Source: Catenulispora sp. MAP5-51 (GTDB lineage: Bacteria; Actinomycetota; Actinomycetes; Streptomycetales; Catenulisporaceae). From it: a DNA stretch of 64,000 nucleotides. The stretch is from contig NZ_JBGCCH010000019.1 in the NCBI RefSeq assembly GCF_041261205.1, positions 1 to 64,000 on the forward strand, given 5' to 3'. Positions within the stretch are counted from its first letter, which is position 1, and every line of letters starts with the position of its first letter. Positions 716-14,997 of the stretch are shown piece by piece. The translations under genes and the position numbers were made by a program. The notes under the pieces were generated by a model. That model was given only the letters and a program-made list of their open reading frames with translations. It was not told the origin of the DNA and did no database searches.

Positions 716-2445
716 CCTGGATGACTCAGGGCTCTCAACTGCTTGATCCTCGGTTTCGCGGGTCTTCGTTTTGCGATCATCTGTCCGTTACTGATGTTCC
801 GGCGGGCGAGCCGCAGGCCCGAGGCGCTCGGGTGGGCGTCGCGGTTCCACGGCCGCGATGAGTTGTCCTTCCAGGTAGCAGGAGCGGGTCTGTACTGGTC
901 AGCCGGGGTTAGGCAGGGCGGTCAGGCGCATCCAGCACGCGGTGAAGGCTTCGGCCCAGAGCCAGCTGGCGGGGATCTTCAAGATGCGGCGGCGGGCGTG
1001 GGCGACGAGGCGGGCCGGGAGGTGCCAGAGTCGGTAGCGCAGGGTGTCCGGCTCGGCGGCTGCGAGGTCGGGATCGTCGGCCAGACCGAGCAACCTGGTC
1101 CAGTCGTGCAGGTCGGCGGCGATGTTCGCGGCCAGGACCCAGCCGACGTTGACGTTCCAGGTCTGCGAGGGCAGCCGGGTCAGTCCCATGGCCTTACCGG
1201 TGCGCACCGAGTGCTCGGCGGCGCCGCCGCGTGCACGATAGAGCACATCAAGGAACCAGCCGTGGTGGGAGCCGGGAACCTCGGCCAAGGCGATGACGTT
1301 GGTGGCGCAGATCTGGTAGCGCCAGCCGGTCGTCTTCTCGAAGTCGGTGAGCTTGCGCTCGTGACGTGCCGACGGCTTGGAGCGACGCACGATCAGGCGC
1401 ACACCCGACGGCCAGTCGGCGAGCCGGCTGTCCAGTCCGGTGAGCTCGGCGACCTGCGCCGCCTGTTGGACCTCGCCGTCCTGGTCGACCGCCGGGCTCC
1501 AGGCGTGCGCGGGCAGCGCGGCGATCGCCGCCTCGTCCTCTGGCGTGTGCTTCCAGCCGGTGACGAACAGCACGTCGCGCCGCGCCGACCACAGCGCGAT
1601 CATCGCTTCCATCAGCTCATGACTCGCCCCGGCCCCGTCGATACGGATCAGGATCCGCCGGCGCCACCGGGCCGGGATCTGCGCGATCGCCTCGCTCAGG
1701 ACGATCACATGATCGGCGGCGGTGTTTGCCCCGGCGTTGCCGGGCCGCAGCAGCATGGCCAGGGACTCGGCCGTGTTCTGACACCAAACGCCCAGCGGAT
1801 GGAAACCCCATCCGCGCTTGAACGTGGCCGCCGTACCCTCCTTGTCCGAGTGCGCGGTGATCAGCGTGCCGTCGATGTCAACGACGATCCACCCGGTCGG
1901 CACCCGTCCGGCCACCACGACCCACGGGAACCCCTGCTCGCGCGCGGCCAGCAGGCCCCACACGCGGTCTCGCACCCTGGCCCTGGCCTTGGCGATCCGG
2001 GTCCGGATCCGGGCGTCGAGCTCATCCAGCGACCGGCGCACTGTCGAGTCCGACGGCGGCGCTCCGAACAAGCCGCGCTGATGCTCCAACAGCGCGATGT
2101 CCACCATCGATGTCGCTCCAAGCGCGATCGCCACTGCAAGCTGCACCAGCACCACGCCCCGGTCCCAGCCCGGCAGCCGGCCAGGCCGCGCCATCGCCGC
2201 CGATAACGCCCCGGTCAGCCTTGCCTTGTCTGCGCACTGGCGCAGCAGTGCCGCACCGGCGTGGCCGATCAACCCCTTCGCATCGGCGGCCACTGACAGC
2301 CGCCGAGCCCAACCGATACCCTGCACCCGAAAGGTGCTCCTGCTCTCCTGGCGGAAACGAACTCGACACTCGCATCCTTCCAGGGCAGGGGCACTTTTCT
2401 CTTCTCAGGACCCGAACTTACAGCTCAGCCGGTGAGTATCCGAGG
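716..2445 (-). mobile_element. IS1380-family insertion sequence, apparently complete
   Basis: The element holds one full-length transposase gene. Imperfect terminal inverted repeats can be read at 716-733 and 2428-2445. Both begin CCT(C)GGAT and continue through an ACTCA block with one-base offsets. The outside flanks are TTAA on the left (712-715) and TCAA on the right (2446-2449), a near-match to a short target duplication. The right-end sequence recurs at positions 1-91. The boundaries are inferred from the repeats and from where similarity between the two copies ends. Confidence 0.7.
899..2326 (-). CDS. IS1380-family transposase
   Basis: This 475-residue protein has the length and organisation of IS1380-family DDE transposases, which are distantly related to piggyBac enzymes. 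Visible family features are an N-terminal helical region, the core IVVDIDGTLITAHSDKEG at about residues 148-165 carrying the first catalytic aspartate, an IRIDGAGAS block near 227 with the second, and a conserved SAxRHERKLTDFEK segment followed by the GWRYQI stretch. The gene lies wholly inside the element and appears undamaged. A long rightward ORF over the same bases is its antisense shadow. Confidence 0.88.
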   Translation of the reverse strand: MQGIGWARRLSVAADAKGLIGHAGAALLRQCADKARLTGALSAAMARPGRLPGWDRGVVLVQLAVAIALGATSMVDIALLEHQRGLFGAPPSDSTVRRSLDELDARIRTRIAKARARVRDRVWGLLAAREQGFPWVVVAGRVPTGWIVVDIDGTLITAHSDKEGTAATFKRGWGFHPLGVWCQNTAESLAMLLRPGNAGANTAADHVIVLSEAIAQIPARWRRRILIRIDGAGASHELMEAMIALWSARRDVLFVTGWKHTPEDEAAIAALPAHAWSPAVDQDGEVQQAAQVAELTGLDSRLADWPSGVRLIVRRSKPSARHERKLTDFEKTTGWRYQICATNVIALAEVPGSHHGWFLDVLYRARGGAAEHSVRTGKAMGLTRLPSQTWNVNVGWVLAANIAADLHDWTRLLGLADDPDLAAAEPDTLRYRLWHLPARLVAHARRRILKIPASWLWAEAFTACWMRLTALPNPG

Positions 2446-2469: not shown

Positions 2470-3699
2470 CTATTCCGATACCGCAGCGGTATCGGGCGCC
2501 CGTCCCAGCTTGCTGATGCGTCGTGCGATGTCGAGTGAGTGTTCGGCGAGGCTCTGTCGGTTCAGGAGATCGTGGGTGTGGAGCAGGTAGCTCACGGCCA
2601 GTGCCTCGTGGGCCAGCTGTTCGCGCTTTCGCTGGGATTCCCGGCGGACGGCTATCAGCCCAAGGGCAACCGCAGCGGTGCCGGCGACGGCGGGATGGCC
2701 GGCCAGCAGCGGGCCGCCAGCAAAGGCGGCGGCTGAGGGAAGCTGCGTCTTGATATTGACGGCAATTGTCGTGGTGTCCAGCTTGAGGTCTCGCAGATGA
2801 CGGCGAAGGTCGGCCATGGGTTGTCTGAGACGGCGGGCGACGTCGTCTTCGAGGTAGCTCAGCAGTACCTGGTGGTCGCGGATGTCGGCCAGCGCGGCGG
2901 CGTCCTGGGCGATCTGGTCGACCAGGACGCCGAAGGCCAGAAACTCCGGTCCGAAGCGGCGGCGGATCTCGACGATTCGGCCGGCCGGGACCCGGTCCAG
3001 GTTGGCCGGGACGAGGAAGTCCAGGGCCAGCAGCGCCACGATCTCTCCGGTCACGGATGAGTCTGACGTCGGCTGCGGTCGGTCGAGGTCGTCGCCGAGC
3101 AGTACGTCGGCGATAACGTCAGTGTTCCAGTTCATCGTCGCCGCATAGGCGTCACTCTGGTCGGTGGTTGGGACGAGCTTGTTGGCACGTGCGAAGTCCT
3201 CGGCAAGGACGCTGCTGTAGATAGCGACGAGCGGCTCGCACATCACAAGCCATCGACGGTCGACCTCGTTTGACAGATCGACGCGTCCGTTCCTTGCGAG
3301 TCCGGCATCGACCAGGGCCGCAGCCAGTCCATGGTCGATCTGGCCCAGATGAACGGCGCTTCGCGGGTTGACGTCGCCGCCAGGAGCGAGGGTGGCGGAG
3401 CCCAAACCGTCGATGCGGTACCGTGCGCGCAGTTCAGGACCTCTGTCGGCGATGATGGCATGAAACATCGGCGCGACCGCGGCGACGGACGGGCCGGGCG
3501 GCTGGCGCTGGATCAGATGCAGCTCGCTCTCGAACCTCTTGACCGTCTCCGAATCCCGGGTCGCGTAGTCCTGGGGCGTCAATCGGATGATGCGAGGCCA
3601 GTACAGTGCCGCGACCTTCAGCCATCGGTCGTCGCGGACGTGGAAATACGGATAGTACAACCCATAGCGGCGCGTCTGGTTCACGCGATGGTCTCGCAC
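2470..3699 (-). CDS. DUF6236-like protein, last gene of the kdsA operon
   Basis: Near its N-terminus the product has a GLYYPYFHVRDDRWLKVAALYW block followed by I-I-R-L-x-P. I associate this pattern with DUF6236 proteins, which are uncharacterised but often sit in accessory defence-like loci. The remainder is mostly helical, with a short hydrophobic glycine/alanine-rich stretch about 70 residues from the end and then a basic segment. I place the start at GTG 3699, where GAGGG lies eight bases upstream; GTG 3708 is possible. A longer reading would overlap the upstream gene by 112 bp. The gap to the ADP-ribosyltransferase gene is 28 bp, so the two are probably co-transcribed. Biochemical role unknown. 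Confidence 0.7.
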   Translation of the reverse strand: MRDHRVNQTRRYGLYYPYFHVRDDRWLKVAALYWPRIIRLTPQDYATRDSETVKRFESELHLIQRQPPGPSVAAVAPMFHAIIADRGPELRARYRIDGLGSATLAPGGDVNPRSAVHLGQIDHGLAAALVDAGLARNGRVDLSNEVDRRWLVMCEPLVAIYSSVLAEDFARANKLVPTTDQSDAYAATMNWNTDVIADVLLGDDLDRPQPTSDSSVTGEIVALLALDFLVPANLDRVPAGRIVEIRRRFGPEFLAFGVLVDQIAQDAAALADIRDHQVLLSYLEDDVARRLRQPMADLRRHLRDLKLDTTTIAVNIKTQLPSAAAFAGGPLLAGHPAVAGTAAVALGLIAVRRESQRKREQLAHEALAVSYLLHTHDLLNRQSLAEHSLDIARRISKLGRAPDTAAVSE

Positions 3700-3727
3700 A
3701 TCTGCCACCCTCGTTCCATGTCGGCGG

Positions 3728-4885
3728 TCAGAACAGCCGGCTTGTGATGTAGGCCCGCTGTTCGGCCGCGACAGCCTCGTATTCCGCAGCGTCGTGCGGG
3801 GCGCTGTGCGCATGCGCGTATTCGGCGCACAGGCGTGCACGGTGGGTCAGGATCAAGGCACGGAACAGGTCGCGCATGTCGCGATCAGCGCCTTCGTTCG
3901 AGGCGATGGCGGTCAGGTGGTCCCTGTTGCTGTTGAGCATGACCGCGCGCACGACGAGCGCCGCACTCTCGCCACTAACGTGCCTCTGCTCGGCGACAGC
4001 CAGAAGCTGCAGGTGGGCTCCGCGCAGAAGGACTTCGCGCTCCTCCGGGTAGTCGGACAGCTTCTCGATGGGGACCGCACAGATCGAAGTGACGACGCTG
4101 GACGGATACTCGGCTCGGTAGTACCCCAGCAGTTCGGGATCCAGGCCGTGGACGTCGATCTCCCATACCAAGGGACGCGAGCCCGGGTGCCGGGCCGCCT
4201 GCTCGTCAGCGAACCGCAGTGCATGGTCACGGACAGCGGTGGCCGACGCCATCGACAACGGAATCGCCACATAGCGCTCGGCGATGGGACCGTGCACTAC
4301 CTGATGGAACGACTCGAGTTCGGTGGGCGTCACGCACATGCCGCGATATACGGTGCCCTCGTACCCGTCGGCTTCCGGTTCGCGAAGCCGGTAGTTGTAT
4401 AGATCGATGGTGAGGAGCTCGACCAGGAACGCCGCCGCTCGAAGCCGAATCGAGTCGCGCGCCAGATCGTCGCTTCGCAAAGCCGCGTTGATGACGCTGT
4501 AGATCCGCTGGTATCCGTCCTCCGACGTGTACAACTGGATCGCGCTGAAGTCGTCGCCGCGGTCCGTCGACCCGTCGAGCCAGGCCTTCCGGCTCGACAG
4601 CAATGCCTCCATCCGACGGCGGTCGGCATCATCGAACGCTCCGACGGCTTGCTCGGCTGCCTCGTCGGCCGCGGTGCTGAGCACGGCACGCAGCTCCTGC
4701 ATGAATTCCTCGTAGCGGTGCCAGTCTGTGCGGATCTGGTTGATGGCCCGGCGCACCTCGTCCATTCGGCCGTAGGCTTCGGTGCTGGAGTAGAAAGGTC
4801 GCAGACCGTTGATCGACCCGCTCACCAACCCCGACCGGATGTCCGACCAGTCAGCGAAGCGCCGCAGCCGCGCGTCAGCCTCCAC
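3728..4885 (-). CDS. Putative mono-ADP-ribosyltransferase of the R-S-E class
   Basis: The 385-residue product has no recognisable secretion signal. Its C-terminal half shows all three signatures of arginine-type mono-ADP-ribosyltransferases in order: YRG with R181 (NAD binding), IPLSMAS with S211/S214 (the S-x-S strand), and YPEEREVLL with E282-x-E284 (the catalytic E-x-E turn). The preceding helical block (INAALRS near 133) also resembles that family. Residues 1-130 are helical and acidic, with no visible domain. Such enzymes use NAD+ to modify protein targets, so this could be a cytoplasmic effector or a regulator. The GTG start at 4885 has GGAGG five bases upstream and follows the isomerase gene by 9 bp. 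The call is from motifs by eye. The nearby macro-domain protein is the natural functional partner. Confidence 0.68.
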   Translation of the reverse strand: MEADARLRRFADWSDIRSGLVSGSINGLRPFYSSTEAYGRMDEVRRAINQIRTDWHRYEEFMQELRAVLSTAADEAAEQAVGAFDDADRRRMEALLSSRKAWLDGSTDRGDDFSAIQLYTSEDGYQRIYSVINAALRSDDLARDSIRLRAAAFLVELLTIDLYNYRLREPEADGYEGTVYRGMCVTPTELESFHQVVHGPIAERYVAIPLSMASATAVRDHALRFADEQAARHPGSRPLVWEIDVHGLDPELLGYYRAEYPSSVVTSICAVPIEKLSDYPEEREVLLRGAHLQLLAVAEQRHVSGESAALVVRAVMLNSNRDHLTAIASNEGADRDMRDLFRALILTHRARLCAEYAHAHSAPHDAAEYEAVAAEQRAYITSRLF

Positions 4886-4894
4886 GACGCCTCC

Positions 4895-5533
4895 TCATTG
4901 TGACCGGTCGCGGGCCATCCGGCCGACGGCCCCGGCCGGGTGGATCCGCGCGACATCGGCGATCGTCCAGCCCCGCCGCCGACTCAGCTCGGCGGCGATG
5001 GCGTCGCCGATCGCCACGGCTACCGCGCTGCTGGCGGTGGGCACCGCGTTGAGCGGGCAAGCCTCGACGGACACCGAGGTGTCGATCACGACGGTCGCGG
5101 CCCCGGCCAGCCCGGAGTCCGGGCCTCCGGTGAACGCGATCACCGGCAGTCCGTCCCGGGCGAGTCCGGCAGCCACCGCGACGGTGTCCTCGGTTCGGCC
5201 GCTGTTGCTCACGCACACGGCGACATCGCCGTCCCGGACGATGCCAAGTCCGCCGTGCAGCGCCGTGGAAGCCGGGACGAACACTGCCGGGGTCCCGTAA
5301 GTCGTGAGTGTCGCGGCCAGTTTCGCGGCGACCAGGCCCGAGACTCCCGTGCCGGTCACGGTCACCAAGCGGGTGCACGCCTGCAGGATCTGAAGCGCCG
5401 CTTCGAGGGCGACCGGGTTCAGACGCTCCGCCGCCCGCTCGATGGCCTGGGCCTCGAAGCGCATCCATTGGAGAATCGATTCCACTGACTCATTCGACGC
5501 CCCCACCGTTCGCGAGATGCCCACTGTGGTCAT
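4895..5533 (-). CDS. SIS-domain sugar-phosphate isomerase, KpsF/GutQ (arabinose-5-phosphate isomerase) type
   Basis: This 212-residue protein is a single SIS domain. A glycine-rich GTGVSG loop lies at 61-66, SNSGRTEDT at 109-117 and HPAGAVGR at 198-205; the last matches the HPxGxxGR tail of KdsD/KpsF enzymes, whose histidine is catalytic. The CBS pair of full-length family members is absent, as in short versions. The lysine usual in the glycine loop (GxGKSG) is valine 64 here, so activity or substrate may differ. Its ATG overlaps the kdsA stop (ATGA), which implies translational coupling. The natural reaction is ribulose-5-phosphate to arabinose-5-phosphate, the co-substrate of KDO-8-phosphate synthase. 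Confidence 0.8.
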   Translation of the reverse strand: MTTVGISRTVGASNESVESILQWMRFEAQAIERAAERLNPVALEAALQILQACTRLVTVTGTGVSGLVAAKLAATLTTYGTPAVFVPASTALHGGLGIVRDGDVAVCVSNSGRTEDTVAVAAGLARDGLPVIAFTGGPDSGLAGAATVVIDTSVSVEACPLNAVPTASSAVAVAIGDAIAAELSRRRGWTIADVARIHPAGAVGRMARDRSQ

Positions 5534-6375
5534 GTCAGGCCTTTGGCGGTGGCGTCCAGGTCTCTCAAACGGATCAGCAGATCGGGGAGCGCGTCCAGCG
5601 CAAGGCAGTTGGAGCCGTCGCTCAGCGCGCGGGGAGGATCTTCATGGACCTCCATGAACAGGCCTGCGACTCCGACCGCGACCGCTGCCTTGGCCAGGGG
5701 AGCGATGAACCGCGGCTGCCCGCCGGTGCTCGACCCGGCGGCACCGGGCAGCTGGATGCTGTGCGTGGCGTCGAAGACCACCGGAACCCCGGCGTCATGG
5801 ATCTGGACCAGCGACCGATAGTCGACGACGAGGTTCTGATACCCGAAGCAGAAGCCCCGCTCGGTGAGCATGATGACGTCGTTGCCGCTCGAACGGGCCT
5901 TGTCCACCAGGGGCACCACCTCGGACGGCGAGATGAACTGGCCCTTCTTGATGTTCACGGGCTTGCCGGCGCCGCAGACCGCCAGAATGAAGTCGGTTTG
6001 CCGGCACAGGAATGCCGGAGTCTGCAACACGTCCGCCACCTCGGCGACCTGCGGAACGTCGTCCCGTTCGTGGACATCGGTGAGGACGGAAACGCCCACC
6101 TGTTTCTTCACCTCCGCGAGGATTTCCAAGCCCGCGTCCAGACCGGGGCCTCGAAAGGACTGGACCGAGGTCCTATTGGCCTTGTCATAGGAAGACTTGA
6201 AGATGTAGGGGATTCCGACCCGTTGCGCGATCTCAGCGATACGTTCGGCATGTCGTAGCGCGGAATCCCGGTTCTCGATGACGCAAGGCCCGGCGATCAA
6301 GGCGAACGGCAGTCCCGAGCCGATTGTCTGATCTCCGACCTTCACCGTTCGCTGACCAGTCGGCGCGGGATTCAC
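5530..6375 (-). CDS. kdsA: 3-deoxy-8-phosphooctulonate (KDO-8-phosphate) synthase
   Basis: This full-length 281-residue aldol synthase joins phosphoenolpyruvate and arabinose-5-phosphate. Family blocks are easy to read: AGPCVIEN (28-35), the KANRTS and RGPGL phosphate-binding region, TDVHE, QTPAFLCRQTD, NIKKGQF, the LTERGxxFGY block, DATHSIQLPG and MEVHEDP. Cysteine 31 is the metal-ligand cysteine of the metal-dependent class; the metal-free enterobacterial class has asparagine there. The GTG start has AGGAG a few bases upstream. KDO is a Gram-negative lipopolysaccharide sugar, so the gene is out of place in an actinomycete. It could serve a cell-wall teichulosonic acid, a capsule or a specialised metabolite. 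It heads the operon with the isomerase and the ADP-ribosyltransferase. Confidence 0.92.
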   Translation of the reverse strand: MNPAPTGQRTVKVGDQTIGSGLPFALIAGPCVIENRDSALRHAERIAEIAQRVGIPYIFKSSYDKANRTSVQSFRGPGLDAGLEILAEVKKQVGVSVLTDVHERDDVPQVAEVADVLQTPAFLCRQTDFILAVCGAGKPVNIKKGQFISPSEVVPLVDKARSSGNDVIMLTERGFCFGYQNLVVDYRSLVQIHDAGVPVVFDATHSIQLPGAAGSSTGGQPRFIAPLAKAAVAVGVAGLFMEVHEDPPRALSDGSNCLALDALPDLLIRLRDLDATAKGLT

Positions 6376-6738
6376 AGGTGTCTCCTAACTAGGATGACGT
6401 ATGCGTTGAAGGGTTTTCCCGAAGTCCTGGAAGAGCCGATGCGAGAGGTATTCCGGCGACCTTCGGCGGTACACTGACGCAGACGGTCCGAAGGAAGGAC
6501 CGGCGTGTACGCGGCGGCGCCGCCGGGTCGATGAACCGCACAAACGACGACTCACCGCCGTGTGCTCCCCTCCTGTGGTCCATCTGTTCGCCGAACCAGT
6601 ACAGCCACCTGCGACGGCTCGCTGAGCGGGCAGCGAACGCGAGCGAAAGGTCGCCATGCCGGACGTCCCCGAAGTGCCGTTTCGCCTCCGCACGGTCGAT
6701 CACGCCGAGAAGACCGGCGAAAGCATCGAGTGTGTCCG
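6376..6738. promoter_or_regulatory. Divergent promoter region between kdsA and the HTH-STAND-macro gene
   Basis: About 360 bp separate the two divergent starts. Promoters for both transcription units should lie here, and the HTH domain of the rightward gene suggests control of its own region. I see no convincing -35/-10 pair or long palindrome. A leftward frame at 6389-6775 crosses it and is listed separately as doubtful. Confidence 0.45.
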
Positions 6739-6775
6739 ATGACACGGGGTCGGCGGGGTCCGGCCGACCTGCCAC
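6389..6775 (-). CDS. Doubtful small ORF upstream of kdsA
   Basis: This 128-codon frame begins at GTG 6775 and stops 13 bp before the kdsA start. Its first half reads like protein, with a balanced helical composition (residues about 16-75). The second half is proline-, serine- and threonine-rich with relaxed third-position GC. It overlaps the first 37 bases of the divergent HTH-STAND gene as I start that gene. It could be a real first operon gene, a decayed one, or chance. I recognise no family. Confidence 0.25.
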   Translation of the reverse strand: MAGRPDPADPVSSDTLDAFAGLLGVIDRAEAKRHFGDVRHGDLSLAFAARSASRRRWLYWFGEQMDHRRGAHGGESSFVRFIDPAAPPRTRRSFLRTVCVSVPPKVAGIPLASALPGLRENPSTHTSS

Positions 6776-8484
6776 CGGGGCCGGCCACCGAACTTGTATC
6801 CCTGCTACGGCAGCTCCAAAGCCTCAAGCCGCGTACCCTCAAGCAGATCTCGGCGGCCAGCGGCATAGCGATCGGCCACGTCAGCGAGGTCTTGAACGGT
6901 TGGAAGGCCCCCAGCCCGGATGCGGCTGAAGCCCTCGCGACGGCATTGGGCGCCGACGACCGCACCGCGGCAAAAGCCCGCGACCTCGCCGATGACCTGG
7001 CGGAGCTCAACCGGTACACCCGGGCCAAACAACGGGGTACCGCGCCTGCCGGCACGTCCGCGGAAGCCCGGCCGGCAGGCGTGCCGGAGGCACGGTTCGA
7101 CGTACCGCCACCGCCTAGCCGCTTCATCGGCCGCGAAGCCGAGGTGGCTGCGATGCAGGCCGCGATCCACGGCTCGAAGACCCTCCACCGCGCGCCGGTG
7201 GTGCAGATCTTCGGCCCCGTCGGCATCGGCAAGACGGCGCTCGCCTCGATCGTCGCCCACGAGTTGCGCCCGGAATATCCTGACGGCTGCGTGTTCGTGG
7301 ACTTCGGCTTGCTGGGCGACGTGTCGGCCGCTCATGCGCGCCTGCTGAGCCGGTTCGGCTTCACCGCGGACATGCTGCCGGCGGAGCCCGCCGAACTGAG
7401 GGCGCTGTACCTGTCCTACCTCTACCGCAGATCGGTCCTGATCGTCGCCGACAACGTCGTAGCCCCGGAACAGGTCCTGGCCCTGGTGCCCGCCTCGCCT
7501 TCATGTGCGGTGGTGACCACCGGCCGGCGATTCCTCGACCACATCGACGAAGTATGTGCGATCGATCTCGGTCCGCTTACCGATGACGAGTCGCAGGCCC
7601 TGCTCACTGTGCTCATCGGAGCGACGAACGCGGAGACGGTCGAGGCTGCGAGCAGCAGTGCGGGCGTCCCGGCGGCAATCCGGGCCACGGCCGCCGGGCT
7701 TCGCGGACCCGGACACGGACCCAGAGAGCCGGTCAAGCCTCCCGAGCCGGCAGAAACCGGGGCGGCCGAAGCGAGACTACTCCCGTTCCCACCCGCTGGC
7801 CTGTCCATGGAACCCATCCCTGACACGATCACGTATCTCACCCCTCTGCGACGCTCTCGGAGCGCCGGTGTCAGGAACATAGGAATCGTCACTGGATACC
7901 TCCGTCGCGTCCACGACGTCGACATATGGGTCAACTCCGAGAACACCGACATGCGGATGTCCCGGTTCGACGACTACACCATTTCGGCGATCATCCGCTA
8001 CGACGGTGCGGTCCGGGACGCGGCCGGACGCGTCATCGAGGACACCATCGCGGACGAACTCGCGCTGAAGGCCGGCCAAGGCCCGGTGGCCGCCGGAACG
8101 GCGATTTTGACCGGGTCCGGCGCGCTCGCCGCCTCCCACAACGTGCGCGCGATCGTCCACGTTGCGGCGGTCTACGGGGAACCGGGCGCGGGCTACCGCC
8201 AGGTTCGCGATGTCGGTCGCTGCGTGACCGGCGCGCTGGCCGAGATTGACCGGTCGCTCGAGCGACCCAGGGAGGTCAGTGTCCTGTTCCCGATGCTGGG
8301 CACCGGCCAGGGCGGTGGCAGCATCGAGCGCACTGCGGCGGTGCTGGTCGGCACCGCCGCCGAATACCTCGCATCGGTTCCCGTGACCCGGATCGGCACC
8401 GTGTGGTTCCTGGCGCACGTCCACCGGGAACTGACGGCCCTGCACGCCGCCGTCGACGCCCACCCCCTGTTGAAAGGCGGCTGA
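6739..8484 (+). CDS. HTH / STAND NTPase / macro-domain fusion protein
   Basis: The 581-residue reading has three parts. Residues 16-75 form an XRE-like helix-turn-helix (LKQISAASGIAIGHVSEVLNG). Residues 120-315 are a STAND/NB-ARC-like ATPase with Walker A GPVGIGKT at 159-166, Walker B VLIVADN near 233 and VVTTGRR near 258. Residues 378-565 resemble a macro domain: VNSENTD at 398-404 in place of NAANxxL, a GTAILTGSGAL loop, AIVHVA, and the MLGTGQGGG loop at 519-527. Macro domains bind or hydrolyse ADP-ribose. A long ORF begins further upstream, but its extra N-terminus is low-complexity; ATG 6739 places the start just before the HTH. Four bases separate it from the WD40 gene. It could sense or erase ADP-ribosylation made by the enzyme at 3728-4885. 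Confidence 0.75.
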   Translation: MTRGRRGPADLPPGPATELVSLLRQLQSLKPRTLKQISAASGIAIGHVSEVLNGWKAPSPDAAEALATALGADDRTAAKARDLADDLAELNRYTRAKQRGTAPAGTSAEARPAGVPEARFDVPPPPSRFIGREAEVAAMQAAIHGSKTLHRAPVVQIFGPVGIGKTALASIVAHELRPEYPDGCVFVDFGLLGDVSAAHARLLSRFGFTADMLPAEPAELRALYLSYLYRRSVLIVADNVVAPEQVLALVPASPSCAVVTTGRRFLDHIDEVCAIDLGPLTDDESQALLTVLIGATNAETVEAASSSAGVPAAIRATAAGLRGPGHGPREPVKPPEPAETGAAEARLLPFPPAGLSMEPIPDTITYLTPLRRSRSAGVRNIGIVTGYLRRVHDVDIWVNSENTDMRMSRFDDYTISAIIRYDGAVRDAAGRVIEDTIADELALKAGQGPVAAGTAILTGSGALAASHNVRAIVHVAAVYGEPGAGYRQVRDVGRCVTGALAEIDRSLERPREVSVLFPMLGTGQGGGSIERTAAVLVGTAAEYLASVPVTRIGTVWFLAHVHRELTALHAAVDAHPLLKGG

Positions 8485-8488
8485 GACG

Positions 8489-10891
8489 ATGCCTCGGATA
8501 TCCCGGGTCACGAGCGTCGAGGTCGTCGGCTTCCTACCGACGCGATCCGTGGAATCCCGACAGCATCCCTTCAACGCAGCCGCTTTCCTGAGCCGCAACA
8601 AGATCTCCGGCGCGCGCGACAAGCCGGGTGGCGACCTTGAGGTCACGCTCAACCAGGTCGACAACCTCCTCAAGGGCCGCACCCCCGCCCGGGATGTGCC
8701 GATGGCCGCACAGTTCTTGGTCGACTTCGACATCCTGGCGGCCCGCACGGCCCTGTACGGCGGTGACGTGACAGCTGTCGTGACAGACCTCGACAACACC
8801 GCGCGACTGCTTGCCCCGATCCACGAACGCGCCGCGGCGCAGCTGCTGGTGCTAGCCCAGGCCCTTCGCCGCTCGGCCGGAATCCTGCGCCTTGCTCCTC
8901 ACCAGCTTCCCGAGCAGGTAATCCTCCGGCTCAACGGTGAAAGCGGCCATCTGCTGCGCCGCCTGGTGACCCGCGCCGAGCATTACAAGACCGGTCTTTG
9001 GATGCGCCCGATGACGCCAGCGGCTCGGAGCCCACACGAGATCGTCAAGCATCTGCAGGGGAACGCATCAGATGCCTGTTTCGCTCCGGACGGCCGGCTC
9101 CTGATCGTGGACAACCAGCGTTTGCTGGAGGTCCTGGATCTCGCCGGAGGCAGACCACGGCAGCCTTTCCGCCTCGGTGCGATCGAGCCGACTTCTCTGG
9201 CCTGTGACGGTACCTACGCGGCGATCGCGACGAGGGACGGCACCATCCGGATCGTCGAACTGGCCCGCGGCCAGCGTCCGCCGCTGGTGCCCTCCGGGCC
9301 CGGCGCCGCCCTCGCCGTCGCCTTCATCCGGCCGGGAATCCTGGTCTCGGCCAACACCCGTGGCCGGCTGACATCCTGGGATGTCGCGGCCGGAGCCGAG
9401 ATCGGCCGTATCGACATCGGCGACCGCACCATCTCGGCGCTGCTTCCTCTGGACGGGGACCGGATCCTGCTCGGTACCGACCCGGAAACCAGCACCAGTC
9501 CAGGGCATGCCCTGCAGATCTGGAACCTGTCGGCGGGCCGCAGGGAGGCGACGTTCGGCAGTCACGACTGGCCGGTGACAGCGCTCGCCCGCGCCGCTGA
9601 AGGCGGCGACGCCGGCTCTGGCGGTGCCACCGGCGCCGCGCCCGACCTCGTGGTCGCGGCTGCGAACGATCAGCTGTCTGCCTGGCGCCTGGACGATCTG
9701 AGCTGTGCGTGGCGGGCCACCCGCGAGCACGTCGCATTCCACTCGGTGCGTTGCCTCCCCGGACGCGCCGTGGTCGGCGACGGCATCGGAGCGCTGAGAC
9801 TGTTCGACATCCACGACGGCCGCGAGCTGCGCCGCCTGGCGCCGCACAGCGGTCTGATCCCGGCGATCGCGTCCGATCCGGAGCGGCGGCGGCTCGCCAC
9901 CGTCTCGTACGACCAGAGTGTGCGCGTGTGGGATACCTCCGCTTTGGAAGCCGCCGCGCCGATGAGGCACCAGCAGGAGGTGACAACGCTCGCGCTCACG
10001 GCGGATCGGGCTCACGTGCTCAGCGCGGGCAAGGATGGACGCGTTCTGGCATGGGACGCGGAAACCGGGGAATTCGAGGGGGAGCTCGGCGGCCACGCGG
10101 GGTGGGTGAGCCGGATCGTGCCAATGCCGGGTGCGGCAGCGGTATCCGCAGGCTGGGACGGAATGATCCGTTTCTGGGACCTTCGCCAAGCGGGCTGCTC
10201 CGCCGCGGTGAGATCGGATGATCCGCAGCTGACACAGCTCGCGGTCACCGCGGACGGGACGTCGGCGGTGACCGCAGGGGCCAAGGGCGTCATCCGAATC
10301 TGGGACCTAGCGCGCCGACAGCAGACCGCGATGACGGCCGCGGACGAGGACGACACGGTGGTGGCGGTGGCGATCGACGGCGGCGGTGTGCGCTGGCTCG
10401 CGGAGTCAGGGCGGCTCTGGTCGTGGCGTCCCGGAGCCGAACCCGTGCAGACCCCGTTCGTCGCGGGGCTGCCAGGCGGTGGCAGGGTTACCGCGTGCGA
10501 CTTCGGGCAGCACGGCGGCAGCTCTGTCATCGGGTTTGCGGACGGACGGATCGTCGCCGTGACCGACGACGGTGTCAGCGCGACAGTCTTGGCCGACGCA
10601 CCCTGCGGAGCAACGGCCATCGCGCGGGACGTTTCGGGCGAGATCGTGGTCGCGACGTTCGGCCTGCCATACACCGCCTCAGACAACACGGCACGGCTGT
10701 GGACCGCCGGCGGACATGGGCCGATCGCCGACCTCGTGGGGGACTCGCCCTGGACGGCGGCCGCCGTCTCCGACGACGGCCGGACGGTCTACTTGGGCGA
10801 GGAGTCCGGCGGCGTGCACGTTATCCAGGTGATGTCGCCAAGACTCAAGCGTCCAGGTCTACATCCAGATCCAAACCCAGCCCGGCGATGA
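8489..10891 (+). CDS. Large WD40 beta-propeller protein
   Basis: This 800-residue protein begins four bases after the macro-protein stop, with AAAGGCGG upstream, so the pair is almost certainly one operon. Residues 1-170 form a helical N-terminal region of unknown type. From about 185 to the end, WD-type blades recur. They are clearest between 440 and 620, where LATVSYDQSVRVWD, LSAGKDGRVLAWD and VSAGWDGMIRFWD are consecutive blade ends. The number of blades suggests two propellers. WD40 arrays are the usual sensor part of STAND proteins, and here the sensor is on a separate polypeptide beside a STAND NTPase that lacks one. No signal peptide. The last 47 bp overlap the convergent PNP-NACHT gene. 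Confidence 0.85.
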   Translation: MPRISRVTSVEVVGFLPTRSVESRQHPFNAAAFLSRNKISGARDKPGGDLEVTLNQVDNLLKGRTPARDVPMAAQFLVDFDILAARTALYGGDVTAVVTDLDNTARLLAPIHERAAAQLLVLAQALRRSAGILRLAPHQLPEQVILRLNGESGHLLRRLVTRAEHYKTGLWMRPMTPAARSPHEIVKHLQGNASDACFAPDGRLLIVDNQRLLEVLDLAGGRPRQPFRLGAIEPTSLACDGTYAAIATRDGTIRIVELARGQRPPLVPSGPGAALAVAFIRPGILVSANTRGRLTSWDVAAGAEIGRIDIGDRTISALLPLDGDRILLGTDPETSTSPGHALQIWNLSAGRREATFGSHDWPVTALARAAEGGDAGSGGATGAAPDLVVAAANDQLSAWRLDDLSCAWRATREHVAFHSVRCLPGRAVVGDGIGALRLFDIHDGRELRRLAPHSGLIPAIASDPERRRLATVSYDQSVRVWDTSALEAAAPMRHQQEVTTLALTADRAHVLSAGKDGRVLAWDAETGEFEGELGGHAGWVSRIVPMPGAAAVSAGWDGMIRFWDLRQAGCSAAVRSDDPQLTQLAVTADGTSAVTAGAKGVIRIWDLARRQQTAMTAADEDDTVVAVAIDGGGVRWLAESGRLWSWRPGAEPVQTPFVAGLPGGGRVTACDFGQHGGSSVIGFADGRIVAVTDDGVSATVLADAPCGATAIARDVSGEIVVATFGLPYTASDNTARLWTAGGHGPIADLVGDSPWTAAAVSDDGRTVYLGEESGGVHVIQVMSPRLKRPGLHPDPNPARR

Positions 10892-12878
10892 GCCGGTGGC
10901 CGACCAGCGAGCTGATCTCGCCGAGATCGACCCCTGCTGCCCGGACGGTCTCGTGCCGATTGAGATAGTCCGAGAAGGTCTGGTGGTAGAAGCTGTAGGT
11001 GGACCGACCGTCGGCAGTGCCATGGCGCAGGAACTGCGTCCAGTCGGCCAGGTATCGGACCACTTCGAGTTCCGTGATCCTCACCGCAACCGCCAGCAGG
11101 GAGGCGGACACCGGCTCGCGTAGTGCCGACAGGGAGTAAATGGTCCTCAGGCTGGCCGCGGCTCCGCCGTCACGGGACAGCATCTGTCGAAGGTGGCGGT
11201 CGTAGTACCCGGTCAGGCCCACGGGCAGGGTGTCGACGTCGTCCGGCTGCATGAGACCCCGCTCGATGTCGCCGAGGACGTAGACGAGGTACATGAAGTT
11301 GAGGTCGCTCCGCTCCAGCAGCCGGTCGATGAACTGTTCCTCGTCTGCCGCGGAGGAGAACTCGACCTTCATCTCGGGCTTGGCCAAGGAGTTGCGGATG
11401 AAGGCTGCCACGTCTGCGCGGCTCTCGTCCGGACGGTTCATCAGGTCGACGATGGTCCACGCACCGTCCGGCTGCAGCGCGGCGGTGCGCAGGCGCCTGC
11501 TTACCAAGAGGTAGACGCCGCCCGGGAGGGCGGTCGGCAGGAAGAGCGGGTTGGCGCCGGACTCCGTACGATCGAGCTCGTCAAGCGCATCGACGACGAT
11601 TACGAGTCTCGCACCGGGGGTCAGGCGGCCTGCAACCTCTTCAATCAGCCTGTTGACGTATACGCCGTCTCGGTCGGCGTCCGGGCCGGGAGCCGGAAGA
11701 TCCGCGCCGTACCGTTCGGACAGCTGCTCGTACAGGCTTTGCAGGAACGCACCGGTGGTGGTGACGCCGCCGCCCGCGATGTTGAAGTGCGCCGGCCAGT
11801 CGTTGCGGACGACTGCCTCGGCCAGCAACGCCGTCTTCCCGACTCCCGGCTCTCCCTGGACGATGAGATGGCCGCTGGGATGCTGGTCGAGGAAAGCCTC
11901 GATCTCCGCGAAAGCCGAGTCCCGGCCGACGAATCCGATCGTCTTGTCCCGGATGTAGGCGGCCTGGGGCCGCCGCGGCGAGATTCGGCCGTGCAAGGCG
12001 CCGGCAGCCGGTGCGGTCGGCGACGTCAATGTGATGTCGCCGCCTGTGCCCACGGCGCGACGCACCGGACCGTGGGCGGTCAGCACGGCGGCGGCGAAAG
12101 CAGCCGCGTTCGCCGCTGCCCGTTGCTGCCAACCGGCACCGTCGGCGTCGGTCTTGCGTCCGTCGGCGCGGTCGCTGATGCCGCGCACGACGAGAGTCGG
12201 CAAGTCGCTGAGGTGCGCGGCGTGGACGATGCCGGCGTCCTCCATGTCGATCGCCCCGGCGTCGTTGTGGTGCAGCACCAGATGCTCGAACAGCGTCGAC
12301 TCACGGCCGTCGAGCACGACCTCGCCAGCGGCGATCGGCCGGAAGTGCACACGGAATCCGGCCTGTCCACTCGTGTCCGGGTTCGCATTCGCCTCCGTAC
12401 CCGCCGTATCGGTCGGGCCGATCGCACCGCTCCAGGAGAGCTCGACGGCACGGGCCAACTCCTCCAGCCGGTACGGCATCGGCCAAGTCTGCGGTCGGGC
12501 CAGGAAGTCCTTCGATGCGGTGCCGCCGTGGTAGGCGTCCACCCGGGTGGCCACGACGACATCGCCCAGTTGCAGGTCTTTGTGCAGCGCTCCCGCCACT
12601 CCGACGCAGGTCAGCAGATCAGGGCGGAACTGGGAGACGATGCGTTCGGTGATCACCCCGGCCCGAACGTTACCCCGGCCTACGCATACCAGCGCGATCT
12701 CCTGGCCGGTCCCACGGAGCACACCTACGTCATACCGAGTGCCCGACTCGAGTTCGACAGTCTCCAAGATCTTGCAATGAGGCCGCATCGCGAGATACTC
12801 GACACGCAGCGCCGTCAGCAGCACGGTTCGCGGACGGTTGACTGACTTGGCCGATACTGGCACCACGATCTCCCGCAT
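10845..12878 (-). CDS. Nucleoside phosphorylase-like / NACHT-type STAND NTPase fusion (NLR-like)
   Basis: The 677-residue reading starts at ATG 12878; the frame allows 13 further upstream codons. Residues 16-270 are a PNP/MTA-nucleosidase-fold domain with VGVAGAL near 92, IDMED at 210-214 and GISDRAD at 233-239. These correspond to the Met-Glu and Asp of the nucleosidase active site, so it is probably catalytic. Residues 310-520 form a P-loop NTPase with GEPGVGKT at 342-349 and VIVVDALDE at 426-434, typical of NACHT/STAND switches. A helical region follows without obvious repeats. PNP-NACHT proteins are known in fungal NLRs and bacterial conflict systems, where the enzyme domain is the effector. 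It converges on the WD40 gene with a 47-bp overlap. Confidence 0.85.
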   Translation of the reverse strand: MREIVVPVSAKSVNRPRTVLLTALRVEYLAMRPHCKILETVELESGTRYDVGVLRGTGQEIALVCVGRGNVRAGVITERIVSQFRPDLLTCVGVAGALHKDLQLGDVVVATRVDAYHGGTASKDFLARPQTWPMPYRLEELARAVELSWSGAIGPTDTAGTEANANPDTSGQAGFRVHFRPIAAGEVVLDGRESTLFEHLVLHHNDAGAIDMEDAGIVHAAHLSDLPTLVVRGISDRADGRKTDADGAGWQQRAAANAAAFAAAVLTAHGPVRRAVGTGGDITLTSPTAPAAGALHGRISPRRPQAAYIRDKTIGFVGRDSAFAEIEAFLDQHPSGHLIVQGEPGVGKTALLAEAVVRNDWPAHFNIAGGGVTTTGAFLQSLYEQLSERYGADLPAPGPDADRDGVYVNRLIEEVAGRLTPGARLVIVVDALDELDRTESGANPLFLPTALPGGVYLLVSRRLRTAALQPDGAWTIVDLMNRPDESRADVAAFIRNSLAKPEMKVEFSSAADEEQFIDRLLERSDLNFMYLVYVLGDIERGLMQPDDVDTLPVGLTGYYDRHLRQMLSRDGGAAASLRTIYSLSALREPVSASLLAVAVRITELEVVRYLADWTQFLRHGTADGRSTYSFYHQTFSDYLNRHETVRAAGVDLGEISSLVGHRLIAGLGLDLDVDLDA

Positions 12879-13013
12879 TGAGGATGACTCGGTTCCACGA
12901 CACCAAAATCTTCGCACTCTGATCGCAAGATCGTGCGGTTTCGACGAGTTTTTGTCGCCGCCGCTCAGGCGTCATCTCGATGGCAGTTCCCAGCGGAGTG
13001 CGCCCCGCCCGAG

Positions 13014-14141
13014 TCACTCCATATTACCGACCTTCTTGCCGCGTCGCCCCTGCACATATTCGTGAATGGCGATGAACTTGACGCCGATGTCCAGGAGCTG
13101 CCCCTCGGCCGCCGCGACTGCGGCGGCCAGCTCGGCACTGATCGCGAAAGCGTCATGGACCTGAAGGAGCCGCTGCGCGCTGTTGCCGCGCGGCGCCTGA
13201 TGCTCCCCCGAATTGACGGGTTCGAGAGCGCCGAGGTAGGGCAGGCGGCCGATGGCAGCGATTCGCTGCGCGGTGTCGGTGACAAGGAACGGTCGGCTGC
13301 GGGAACCGACGGCCACGACTGCGACCGGGCGCTCGCTCCAGCCCCACGCGGCTAGGACCTTCACGATGCCGTCCAGCATCGGGGCGGGCAGCGGCTGGTC
13401 GGGGACCTCGTCGGCGAGCAGATCGCGCAGGCGCAGGCCCCAACCGCGGTCCGTCAGGCGGCCGAGGGCGCGGCCCGGCTTGGCGGCCGCAGCGCCACCG
13501 ATCTTGCCGGACAGCTCGATTCCGAGGGCCGCCATACCGGTTGGCCACAGTGTGCGGGTCTGGATCACGACGCCCGGCTTGGCCAGGGCGGCACGCGCCG
13601 CCTCGGCTCCCTCGCCCGTGACGCTCGCGGTGAACTTCGCGCCGGCGCAGTTGTCGCAGCGTCCGCAGGGGCCTTCGACGGCCGGGTCGTCGAGCTGGCG
13701 GCGCAGGAAGGTCATGCGGCATTCGTCGGTGGTCTCGTACTCGATCATCGAGCGCTGCTCGGCCTCGCGTGCTGCGGCGACCCGTGCGTATCGTTCGCCG
13801 TCGTAGTGCCAAGGTTGCCCGGTCGACTCCCAGCGGCCCTTGACCCGTCGCACCGCTCCGTCGACGTCCAGGACCTTGAGCATGGTCTCCAGCCGGGAGC
13901 GCCGCAGGTCGACCCGCGGCTCCAGGGCCGCGGTCGACAGCGGCCGGCCGGCGGCGGCCAGCGCGTCCAGAGCTTGGCGGACCTGCTGCTCCGGCGGGAA
14001 GGCCAGCGAGGCGAGCGGCGACACGATCAGCGTCGGCCCGGCGCCGCGGGCGCGCAGCAGGGCCGTCGCCACAAAGTAGACCGCCGACTTCCCCCAGCCA
14101 GTCCGCTGCACCACCAGCGCCCGGCGGCGGTGGACGGCCAA
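13014..14141 (-). pseudogene. Decayed RecQ-type DNA helicase gene with internal deletion
   Basis: The reading runs from the Walker A region (RALVVQRTGWGKSAVYF) through a short TLIVSPLASLAF segment and then straight into the C-terminal RQC-like part with the CGRCDNCAG zinc motif. Helicase motifs II to VI, normally a few hundred residues, are missing in frame. The N-terminus is also gone: the frame is closed by TGA at about 14174, where a different gene fragment begins. The last 30 residues (from about EGQLLDIG) do not look like the family, so the 3' end is probably replaced too. It cannot encode a working helicase. This suggests repeated deletion at a recombination-prone spot. Confidence 0.75.
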
Positions 14142-14499: not shown

Positions 14500-14997
14500 T
14501 CAGGTTCTTGGGTGTCGGGGTTGGCTGTGGCGGCCGCTGGTGTGGGTGGTGAGGTGTCCCCGGGCGCGGCGGGTGGTGGCGCAGCGGGCACGCAGGCGCT
14601 GGTTGGCAGGGTTGCGGTAGCCGTAGGCGGCTCGGGCATCGGTCTTCATCGATCTGTTGATCCCTTCTGAGCCGGCGTTGCTGACGCCCGAGATGATCGC
14701 GGCCTCGATCTCGGGCCACCAGGTGTTGACCGTGGTGGCCCGGCGTTCCAGTTCCGGCAGGCCGGATGCGGCGCAGGACTCGTAGAACCGGAACAGCCGG
14801 TGCGCGATCGTCGTCCGTTCGGGGCGGGTGTGCATCAGAGCCAGGATGTCCATCAGGTCTTCTTTGGCGTTCCACGCGGTCGGGATCGGCACGCTGATCT
14901 TCACCGGGAGGTTCTGGAGGTCCTCGACCATCACCGCCATCACATCAGGGGTCGAGGGACCTTCGCCCGACACTTCAGGGTGATGCGATCTCGCCAC
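14500..14997 (-). pseudogene. ISL3-family transposase, C-terminal fragment
   Basis: The 165-codon frame carries the C-terminal signature of ISL3 transposases: WW-P-E-I-E-A-A-I-x-S-G-V-S-N-A-G-S-E-G, then INRSMKTDARAAYGYRN and the arginine-rich RARCATTRRARGHL end. The intact family is over 400 residues, so about two thirds is absent, including the first catalytic aspartates. No terminal repeats were found. It is one of several dead elements in the 13-16 kb stretch. Confidence 0.7.

Follow-up and report, generated by a model that had tools for sequence, protein, structure and literature searches.

The gene at 6739-8484 (plus strand) in the 64,000-nucleotide stretch of Catenulispora sp. MAP5-51 analysed here (the window) encodes a 581-residue protein in which a helix-turn-helix (HTH) domain and a STAND NTPase precede a macro domain. 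Conserved alongside it are genes for a WD40 protein and for a STAND protein carrying a PNP-type nucleosidase (PNP-STAND), neither of which figured in the original prediction for this DNA. The reading that we favour, with a probability slightly below one half (roughly 0.48), is that the HTH-STAND-macro protein is the regulator of a mobile, defence-type module formed by these three genes, in which PNP-STAND would be the effector, the macro domain would sense a ligand and the HTH would provide the output.

Domain architecture of the HTH-STAND-macro protein

The protein starts with an XRE-type HTH (HTH_31, residues 18-76, positions 6790-6966, plus strand), which scored 26.7 bits in Pfam against a cut-off of 27 (E 7e-06), and in which the segment HVSEVLxGWKAPSP is invariant across the three orthologues. 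This is followed by an NB-ARC/AAA_16-type NTPase (residues 122-322, positions 7102-7704, plus strand; AAA_16 E 1e-06) that comprises the nucleotide-binding domain and ARC1 only. The Pfam AAA_16 match covers residues 128-224 with 29.8 bits (cut-off 32.6), and the NB-ARC score is weak for the window protein (17.4 bits) and reaches 49.1 and 31.3 bits in the orthologues from Catellatospora sp. KI3 (L011) and Actinomadura sp. CNU-125 (L012), respectively (cut-off 23.5). The STAND motifs are GPVGIGKT (Walker A, 7213-7236, plus strand, inside the NTPase), VLIVADN (Walker B), TTGR and AGVP (GxP), and the closest PDB match for the N-terminal part of the protein is the AfsR NTPase. In L011 and L012, the NB-ARC profile alignment ends at position 205-206 of 248, and the STAND part stops past the GxP motif of ARC1, after which come a low-complexity linker and the macro domain. 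As judged from the NB-ARC profile match and the architecture, neither a winged helix nor a C-terminal repeat sensor was found in this protein, thus the macro domain substitutes for more than the sensor. The actinobacterial HTH-NB-ARC-repeat regulators (AfsR-type and FxSxx-TPR proteins) have the same kind of NTPase, often behind an HTH, but the window protein has a macro domain where their winged helix and repeat sensor would be. Identity with both orthologues is higher in the macro domain (65-66%) than in the NTPase (52-56%). Since the open reading frame is conserved in three genera, a pseudogene or chance reading frame was ruled out.

Predicted fold and pocket of the macro domain

The C-terminal domain (residues 376-577, positions 7864-8469, plus strand) matched Pfam Macro (PF01661) over residues 422-535 with 26.9 bits in the whole protein and 29.3 bits when the C-terminal part was taken alone, against a cut-off of 22. 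Using an alignment of 17 relatives as input, AlphaFold2 predicted a macro fold spanning about residues 376-577, with a pLDDT of 93.8 and a pTM of 0.91. Foldseek matched this model to macroH2A (E 6e-11), and VIA-align superimposed it on macroH2A1.1 (1zr3) with a Z score of 22.7 and 2.2 A over 179 residues. In both comparisons the best fold matches were macroH2A1.1/macroH2A (Z 22.7-23.0, about 2.2 A, about 180 residues), with PARP14 macro domains also among the nearest folds. The ThsA macro domain was absent among the 50 fold matches listed, which has no bearing on relatedness. The original prediction had placed a macro domain at the C-terminal end of the HTH-STAND protein and had listed the absence of a macro fold among its grounds for refutation; the Pfam score and the confident model both confirm this domain. 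A Pfam scan of the genome returned only one further macro domain above the cut-off, a canonical one on a different contig.

The macro fold usually binds ADP-ribose-type molecules. Profile alignment against the canonical macro domain encoded elsewhere in the genome paired WVNSENTDM with IVNAANSSL and GTGQGGG with ISTGIFG, which places VNSENTD at the position of the canonical NAAN motif. These segments belong to loop 1 (VNSENTDMRMSR, from 7930, plus strand) and loop 2 (GTGQGGG, 8299-8319, plus strand), and both the second Asn of NxxN and the GxG of loop 2 are kept. Canonical loop 1 cradles the diphosphate and the distal ribose, but its glycine-rich part (GGGGVDGAIH in the aligned canonical domain) has no counterpart in the window macro domain. 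The MacroD-type catalytic loop 1 (NAANxxLxGGGGVDGAIH) is missing throughout the subfamily, as 17 of 17 members are of the SENTDMxMxR type without the glycine run, and on this alignment MacroD-type hydrolysis is without its loop in the subfamily. Residues E42, N43, M46, M48, R50, R61 and D76 are invariant or near-invariant (alignment A1), and H115 stands with E42, N43, R61 and D76 among the subfamily's own invariant polar residues. In the numbering of the window protein, E42, R61 and D76 are E401, R420 and D435. The Asp that contacts adenine is a Tyr in the window protein (GYL versus GDI) and an Asp in many relatives, including both orthologues. In the ThsA pocket, an Asp holds the adenine and Asn114 the distal ribose, and the second loop takes up the diphosphate (PMC11204291). 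On sequence grounds, the window macro domain could plausibly bind an ADP-ribose-like ligand. However, new invariant residues stand where the glycine-rich loop would be, so that free ADP-ribose is uncertain as the ligand and what is bound may not be plain ADP-ribose.

A conserved three-gene module

The same macro subfamily turned up at 19 loci when 84,980 species genomes were scanned. The full three-gene set recurs in L011 and L012, and the order and orientation of all three genes are kept between these loci and the window, which represent three actinomycete genera. Identities to the window are 54% (L011) and 57% (L012) for the HTH-STAND-macro protein, 48-54% for the WD40 protein and 60% for PNP-STAND. 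The WD40 gene (8489-10891, plus strand; WD40 82.8 bits) begins 4 nt past the end of the macro gene and encodes a beta-propeller preceded by a conserved N-terminal domain some 200 residues long. Its position is unchanged at the two orthologous loci, with an apparent mid-gene frameshift in L012. The N-terminal domain is present in 1 of 395 genomes of the class, and structure prediction for the protein was poor (pLDDT 56, helical). The protein might be the broken-off half of a known NB-ARC-WD40 paralogue, but neither its N-terminal 211 residues nor the whole protein had a paralogue in its own genome.

The third gene (10845-12917, minus strand) is convergent with the WD40 gene, and their 3' ends overlap in the window and in L011. 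It encodes a PNP/MTAN-type nucleosidase (PF01048, 82.9 bits) fused to a STAND NTPase (AAA_16, 47.3 bits). The catalytic Glu, Met-Glu and Asp of the nucleosidase are kept as VEY, IDMED and RGISD in all three orthologues, and the closest solved relatives of this part are MTA/SAH nucleosidases. The NTPase has a full STAND core (VVDALDE), and the protein stops shortly past the winged-helix region (FYHQTFSDYL), without a repeat sensor. PNP-STAND is the probable effector of the module, and the WD40 protein is probably a sensor in trans and may be the only sensor of the module. PADLOC matched the PNP part to a generic effector model (81.6 bits); it gave no system match for the module, no model match for the macro domain, and weak P-loop matches for the full-length HTH-STAND-macro protein. 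A parallel to the PNP-STAND and WD40 pair was seen in another actinomycete (L061, 7744-13580), where a TIR-STAND protein ends after the winged-helix region and its gene overlaps by 4 nt with that for a 1429-residue protein without a Pfam match.

The divergent operon and the genomic setting

Divergent from the macro gene, and outside the conserved module, lies an operon at 2470-6375 (minus strand) with genes for a KDO8P synthase (5530-6375; NCBIfam equivalog, 393.6 bits), a KpsF-like SIS sugar-phosphate isomerase (4895-5533; Pfam/NCBIfam), an ADP-ribosyltransferase (ART, 3728-4885; PF01129, 25.7 bits versus a cut-off of 22.3) and a DUF6236 protein (2470-3840; Pfam/NCBIfam), all on the minus strand. 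The KDO8P synthase and KpsF-like genes (4895-6375) are unexpected in an actinomycete operon with ART and DUF6236. The neighbouring ART operon of the original prediction is thus real. However, no homologues of the ART, KpsF, KDO8P synthase or DUF6236 genes were found near the macro gene in L011 or L012, and ART occurs in 1 of 14 genomes of the family, so that it was dropped as a conserved partner and appears to be an incidental neighbour.

In L011 (3660-6675) and L012 (4361-6790), the divergent place is occupied by genes for a radical-SAM/SPASM enzyme, a precursor-like ORF and a glycosyltransferase, which look like a cyclophane-type peptide cassette; the small, Trp-rich precursor-like ORF ends in DFSDWSQFNQWPQSW and DWSDWTQWNQWPQSY, respectively, and the L011 cassette also contains a methyltransferase-like ORF. 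The upstream regions of the window, L011 and L012 have no 9-mer common to all three, and a search of the region between the divergent promoters for a conserved operator turned up inverted repeats of chance-like quality only.

The region is flanked by a DDE transposase gene (899-2326, minus strand; PF13701, 158.6 bits) and an ISL3-type transposase fragment (14500-14997, minus strand; PF01610, 68.4 bits). Next to the latter lies a truncated RecQ-like helicase ORF (13014-14141, minus strand) with weak DEAD and RecQ zinc-binding matches. Neither the macro gene nor the ART gene was found in any of the 13 other genomes of the family, and both look like accessory cargo. A search for phage carriage gave no match, and the plasmid matches were distant Streptomyces macro domains only.

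The macro subfamily in other loci

The VNSENTDMxMxR macro domain proved to be a portable and constant C-terminal module whose N-terminal parts are swapped. Besides NB-ARC (L011, L012), it is fused to TIR_2 (L013, L014, L016, L044), HTH_31 (L015, L028, L029) and NUDIX (L026). TIR/DRHyd-like fusions were assigned in L019, L023 and L027 from Pfam CAP12-PCTIR_TIR matches below the cut-off, and in L017, L025 and L046, which have no N-terminal Pfam match, from sequence likeness; the DRHyd-like label itself comes from sequence motifs. In L045, the N-terminal part reads as a membrane segment. Related enzymes are also encoded nearby: PNP_UDP_1 proteins near TIR-macro genes (L013, L014, L016, L018), NUDIX proteins (L017, L045), SIR2_2-CHAT proteins (L019, L023) and a SIR2_2 protein (L027). 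NUDIX enzymes can cut ADPR-like molecules. Since the 10.9-Mb genome contains no more than four PNP-superfamily genes, the repeated adjacency of PNP and macro genes is unlikely to be due to chance.

A tree built from 21 macro domains places those of the window, L011, L012 and L024 in one group (99/99), and those of L015, L028 and L029, whose HTH is of another type, in a second group (98/97); one change each accounts for the TIR fusions and for the DRHyd fusions. The HTH-macro fusions involve three dissimilar HTH types with 21-31% identity between them, and together with the separate groups this indicates that the coupling of HTH and macro arose or was rebuilt more than once. Moreover, the L024 protein, encoded on a truncated contig, is an HTH-macro protein without NTPase within the clade of the window, which suggests that the NTPase is optional. 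The recurrence of HTH-macro proteins and the dispensable NTPase favour a ligand receptor that feeds a DNA-binding output. The HTH-coupled sensor of the original prediction is thus plausible, given the recurrent fusions and the links of the subfamily to NAD+/ADP-ribose or PNP enzymes, but its readout of the adjacent ART is not supported, with the operon absent from both orthologous loci and no 9-mer common to the upstream regions.

Several of these loci have features of their own. In L013 (5236-9457), a CATRA-PNP fusion, the TIR-macro gene and a second PNP gene are consecutive. In L045 (6982-10450), a NUDIX gene, the membrane-segment-macro gene and a gene with a GAGVS motif form one tight operon that resembles a Thoeris-like TM-macro effector; the GAGVS gene has no Pfam match, and SIR2-like is a label based on its motif. 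A second, distant macro family occurs in actinomycetes (L039-L041, L047-L050), with a RES-domain gene (67.7 bits) located one gene downstream in L039; L040 and L041 look alike.

Discussion

We consider it most likely that the constant macro domain serves as receptor for a nucleotide of the NAD+/ADP-ribose type and that the HTH is one output of the module. The following course of events is conceivable. The WD40 protein and the STAND ATPases would detect an intrusion, upon which PNP-STAND would cut a purine nucleotide or nucleoside, with ATP as the best guess by analogy with the PNP effector of Detocs. The macro domain would read the level of a NAD+/ADP-ribose-type nucleotide, and the shortened STAND ATPase would relay its state to the HTH switch, which would probably set the transcription of the module itself, in the simplest case at its own promoter region. 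The domain architecture, the confidently predicted macro fold, the conservation of the three genes and the recurrent genomic coupling of the subfamily to NAD+/ADP-ribose or nucleoside enzymes are observed, and from there on we infer sensing rather than catalysis by the macro domain, binding of the HTH to DNA, the substrate of the nucleosidase and a role in defence.

By analogy, type II Thoeris is the closest precedent for the receptor step. Its TM-macro protein ThsA binds ADPR and IAD through the macro domain and then oligomerises (PMC11204291), and, as related in PMC12847820 with reference to Sabonis et al. 2025, His-ADPR made by the TIR protein acts on ThsA. As in ThsA/ThsB, the macro domain of the subfamily would be a C-terminal nucleotide receptor of an immune effector and is linked to TIR, and L045 reads as a membrane segment plus macro. 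However, the window macro domain belongs to another sequence family, no TIR or TM-macro gene lies beside 6739-8484, the output consists of HTH and STAND, and the partners are the WD40 and PNP-STAND proteins. The Detocs effector, which cuts ATP (PMC11249213), likewise joins a PNP-superfamily domain with its catalytic residues kept to a signalling module, but this is a two-component system instead of a STAND NTPase, and the substrate of the window nucleosidase is suggested by this analogy. More broadly, the module resembles the NAD+- and nucleotide-centred conflict systems described by Aravind and co-workers (PMC7159879, PMC9503650, PMC8195603), in which STAND, PNP, TIR, DRHyd, SIR2, NUDIX, macro and HTH domains occur and effectors are swapped in a fixed context. 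No description of the three-gene set or of the VNSENTDM macro subfamily was found in the open-access papers searched.

Other roles of the HTH-STAND-macro protein have to be weighed against this reading. The macro domain might be an enzyme that hydrolyses or modifies an ADP-ribose-type signal or adduct, thereby ending the response or protecting the cell. Macro domains in conflict systems are mostly thought to process ADPr derivatives (PMC9503650), and the subfamily's own invariant polar residues (E42, N43, R61, D76, H115) and the fused (L026) or adjoining (L017, L045) NUDIX domains are compatible with catalysis. Yet the catalytic loop of MacroD hydrolases (GGGVDGAIH) is missing, macroH2A1.1 and the PARP14 macro domains, which do not hydrolyse, are among the closest folds, and the HTH fusions without any other enzyme (L015, L024, L028, L029) fit a receptor better, so that we consider an enzymatic role unlikely.

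It also seems rather unlikely that sensing falls to the WD40 protein and that the HTH-STAND-macro protein is a structural or adaptor partner of PNP-STAND, with the macro domain as docking surface and a non-regulatory HTH. Such an arrangement would fit with a PNP-STAND protein that has no repeat sensor of its own and a repeat protein encoded beside it, with the similar split in L061 and with the co-occurrence of the three genes in all three known loci, but the macro subfamily occurs elsewhere without WD40 or PNP-STAND partners, and the recognition segment of the HTH is among the most conserved parts of the protein. Far less credible is the model of the original prediction, in which the protein senses ADP-ribose or ADP-ribosylated protein produced by the ART at 3728-4885 and controls the ART operon. 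The two divergent promoters do have 6376-6738 in common, and the ART domain scores above the Pfam cut-off, but at both orthologous loci the radical-SAM peptide cassette stands in place of the ART operon, and the three upstream regions have no common operator.

Thus, a regulator of a three-gene, defence-type module remains our preferred reading. A wider proposal, which we put forward tentatively and regard as possible rather than likely, is that bacteria share the VNSENTDM macro domain as a receptor for an immune nucleotide that derives from NAD+ but is not free ADP-ribose, and that this receptor drives interchangeable TIR, DRHyd-like, NUDIX, membrane and HTH outputs across bacteria. The HTH-STAND-macro protein would then be an NLR-like protein with a transcriptional response, in which a small-molecule sensor replaces the repeats. 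If true, bacterial STAND proteins can exchange their repeat sensor for a nucleotide receptor, and a single macro subfamily would listen to NAD+-derived signals on behalf of several outputs, transcription among them. With one receptor domain and six kinds of partners, the subfamily offers a compact and testable set for finding the ligand, and the window adds a module of three genes, with a nucleosidase as its effector, for which PADLOC has no name.
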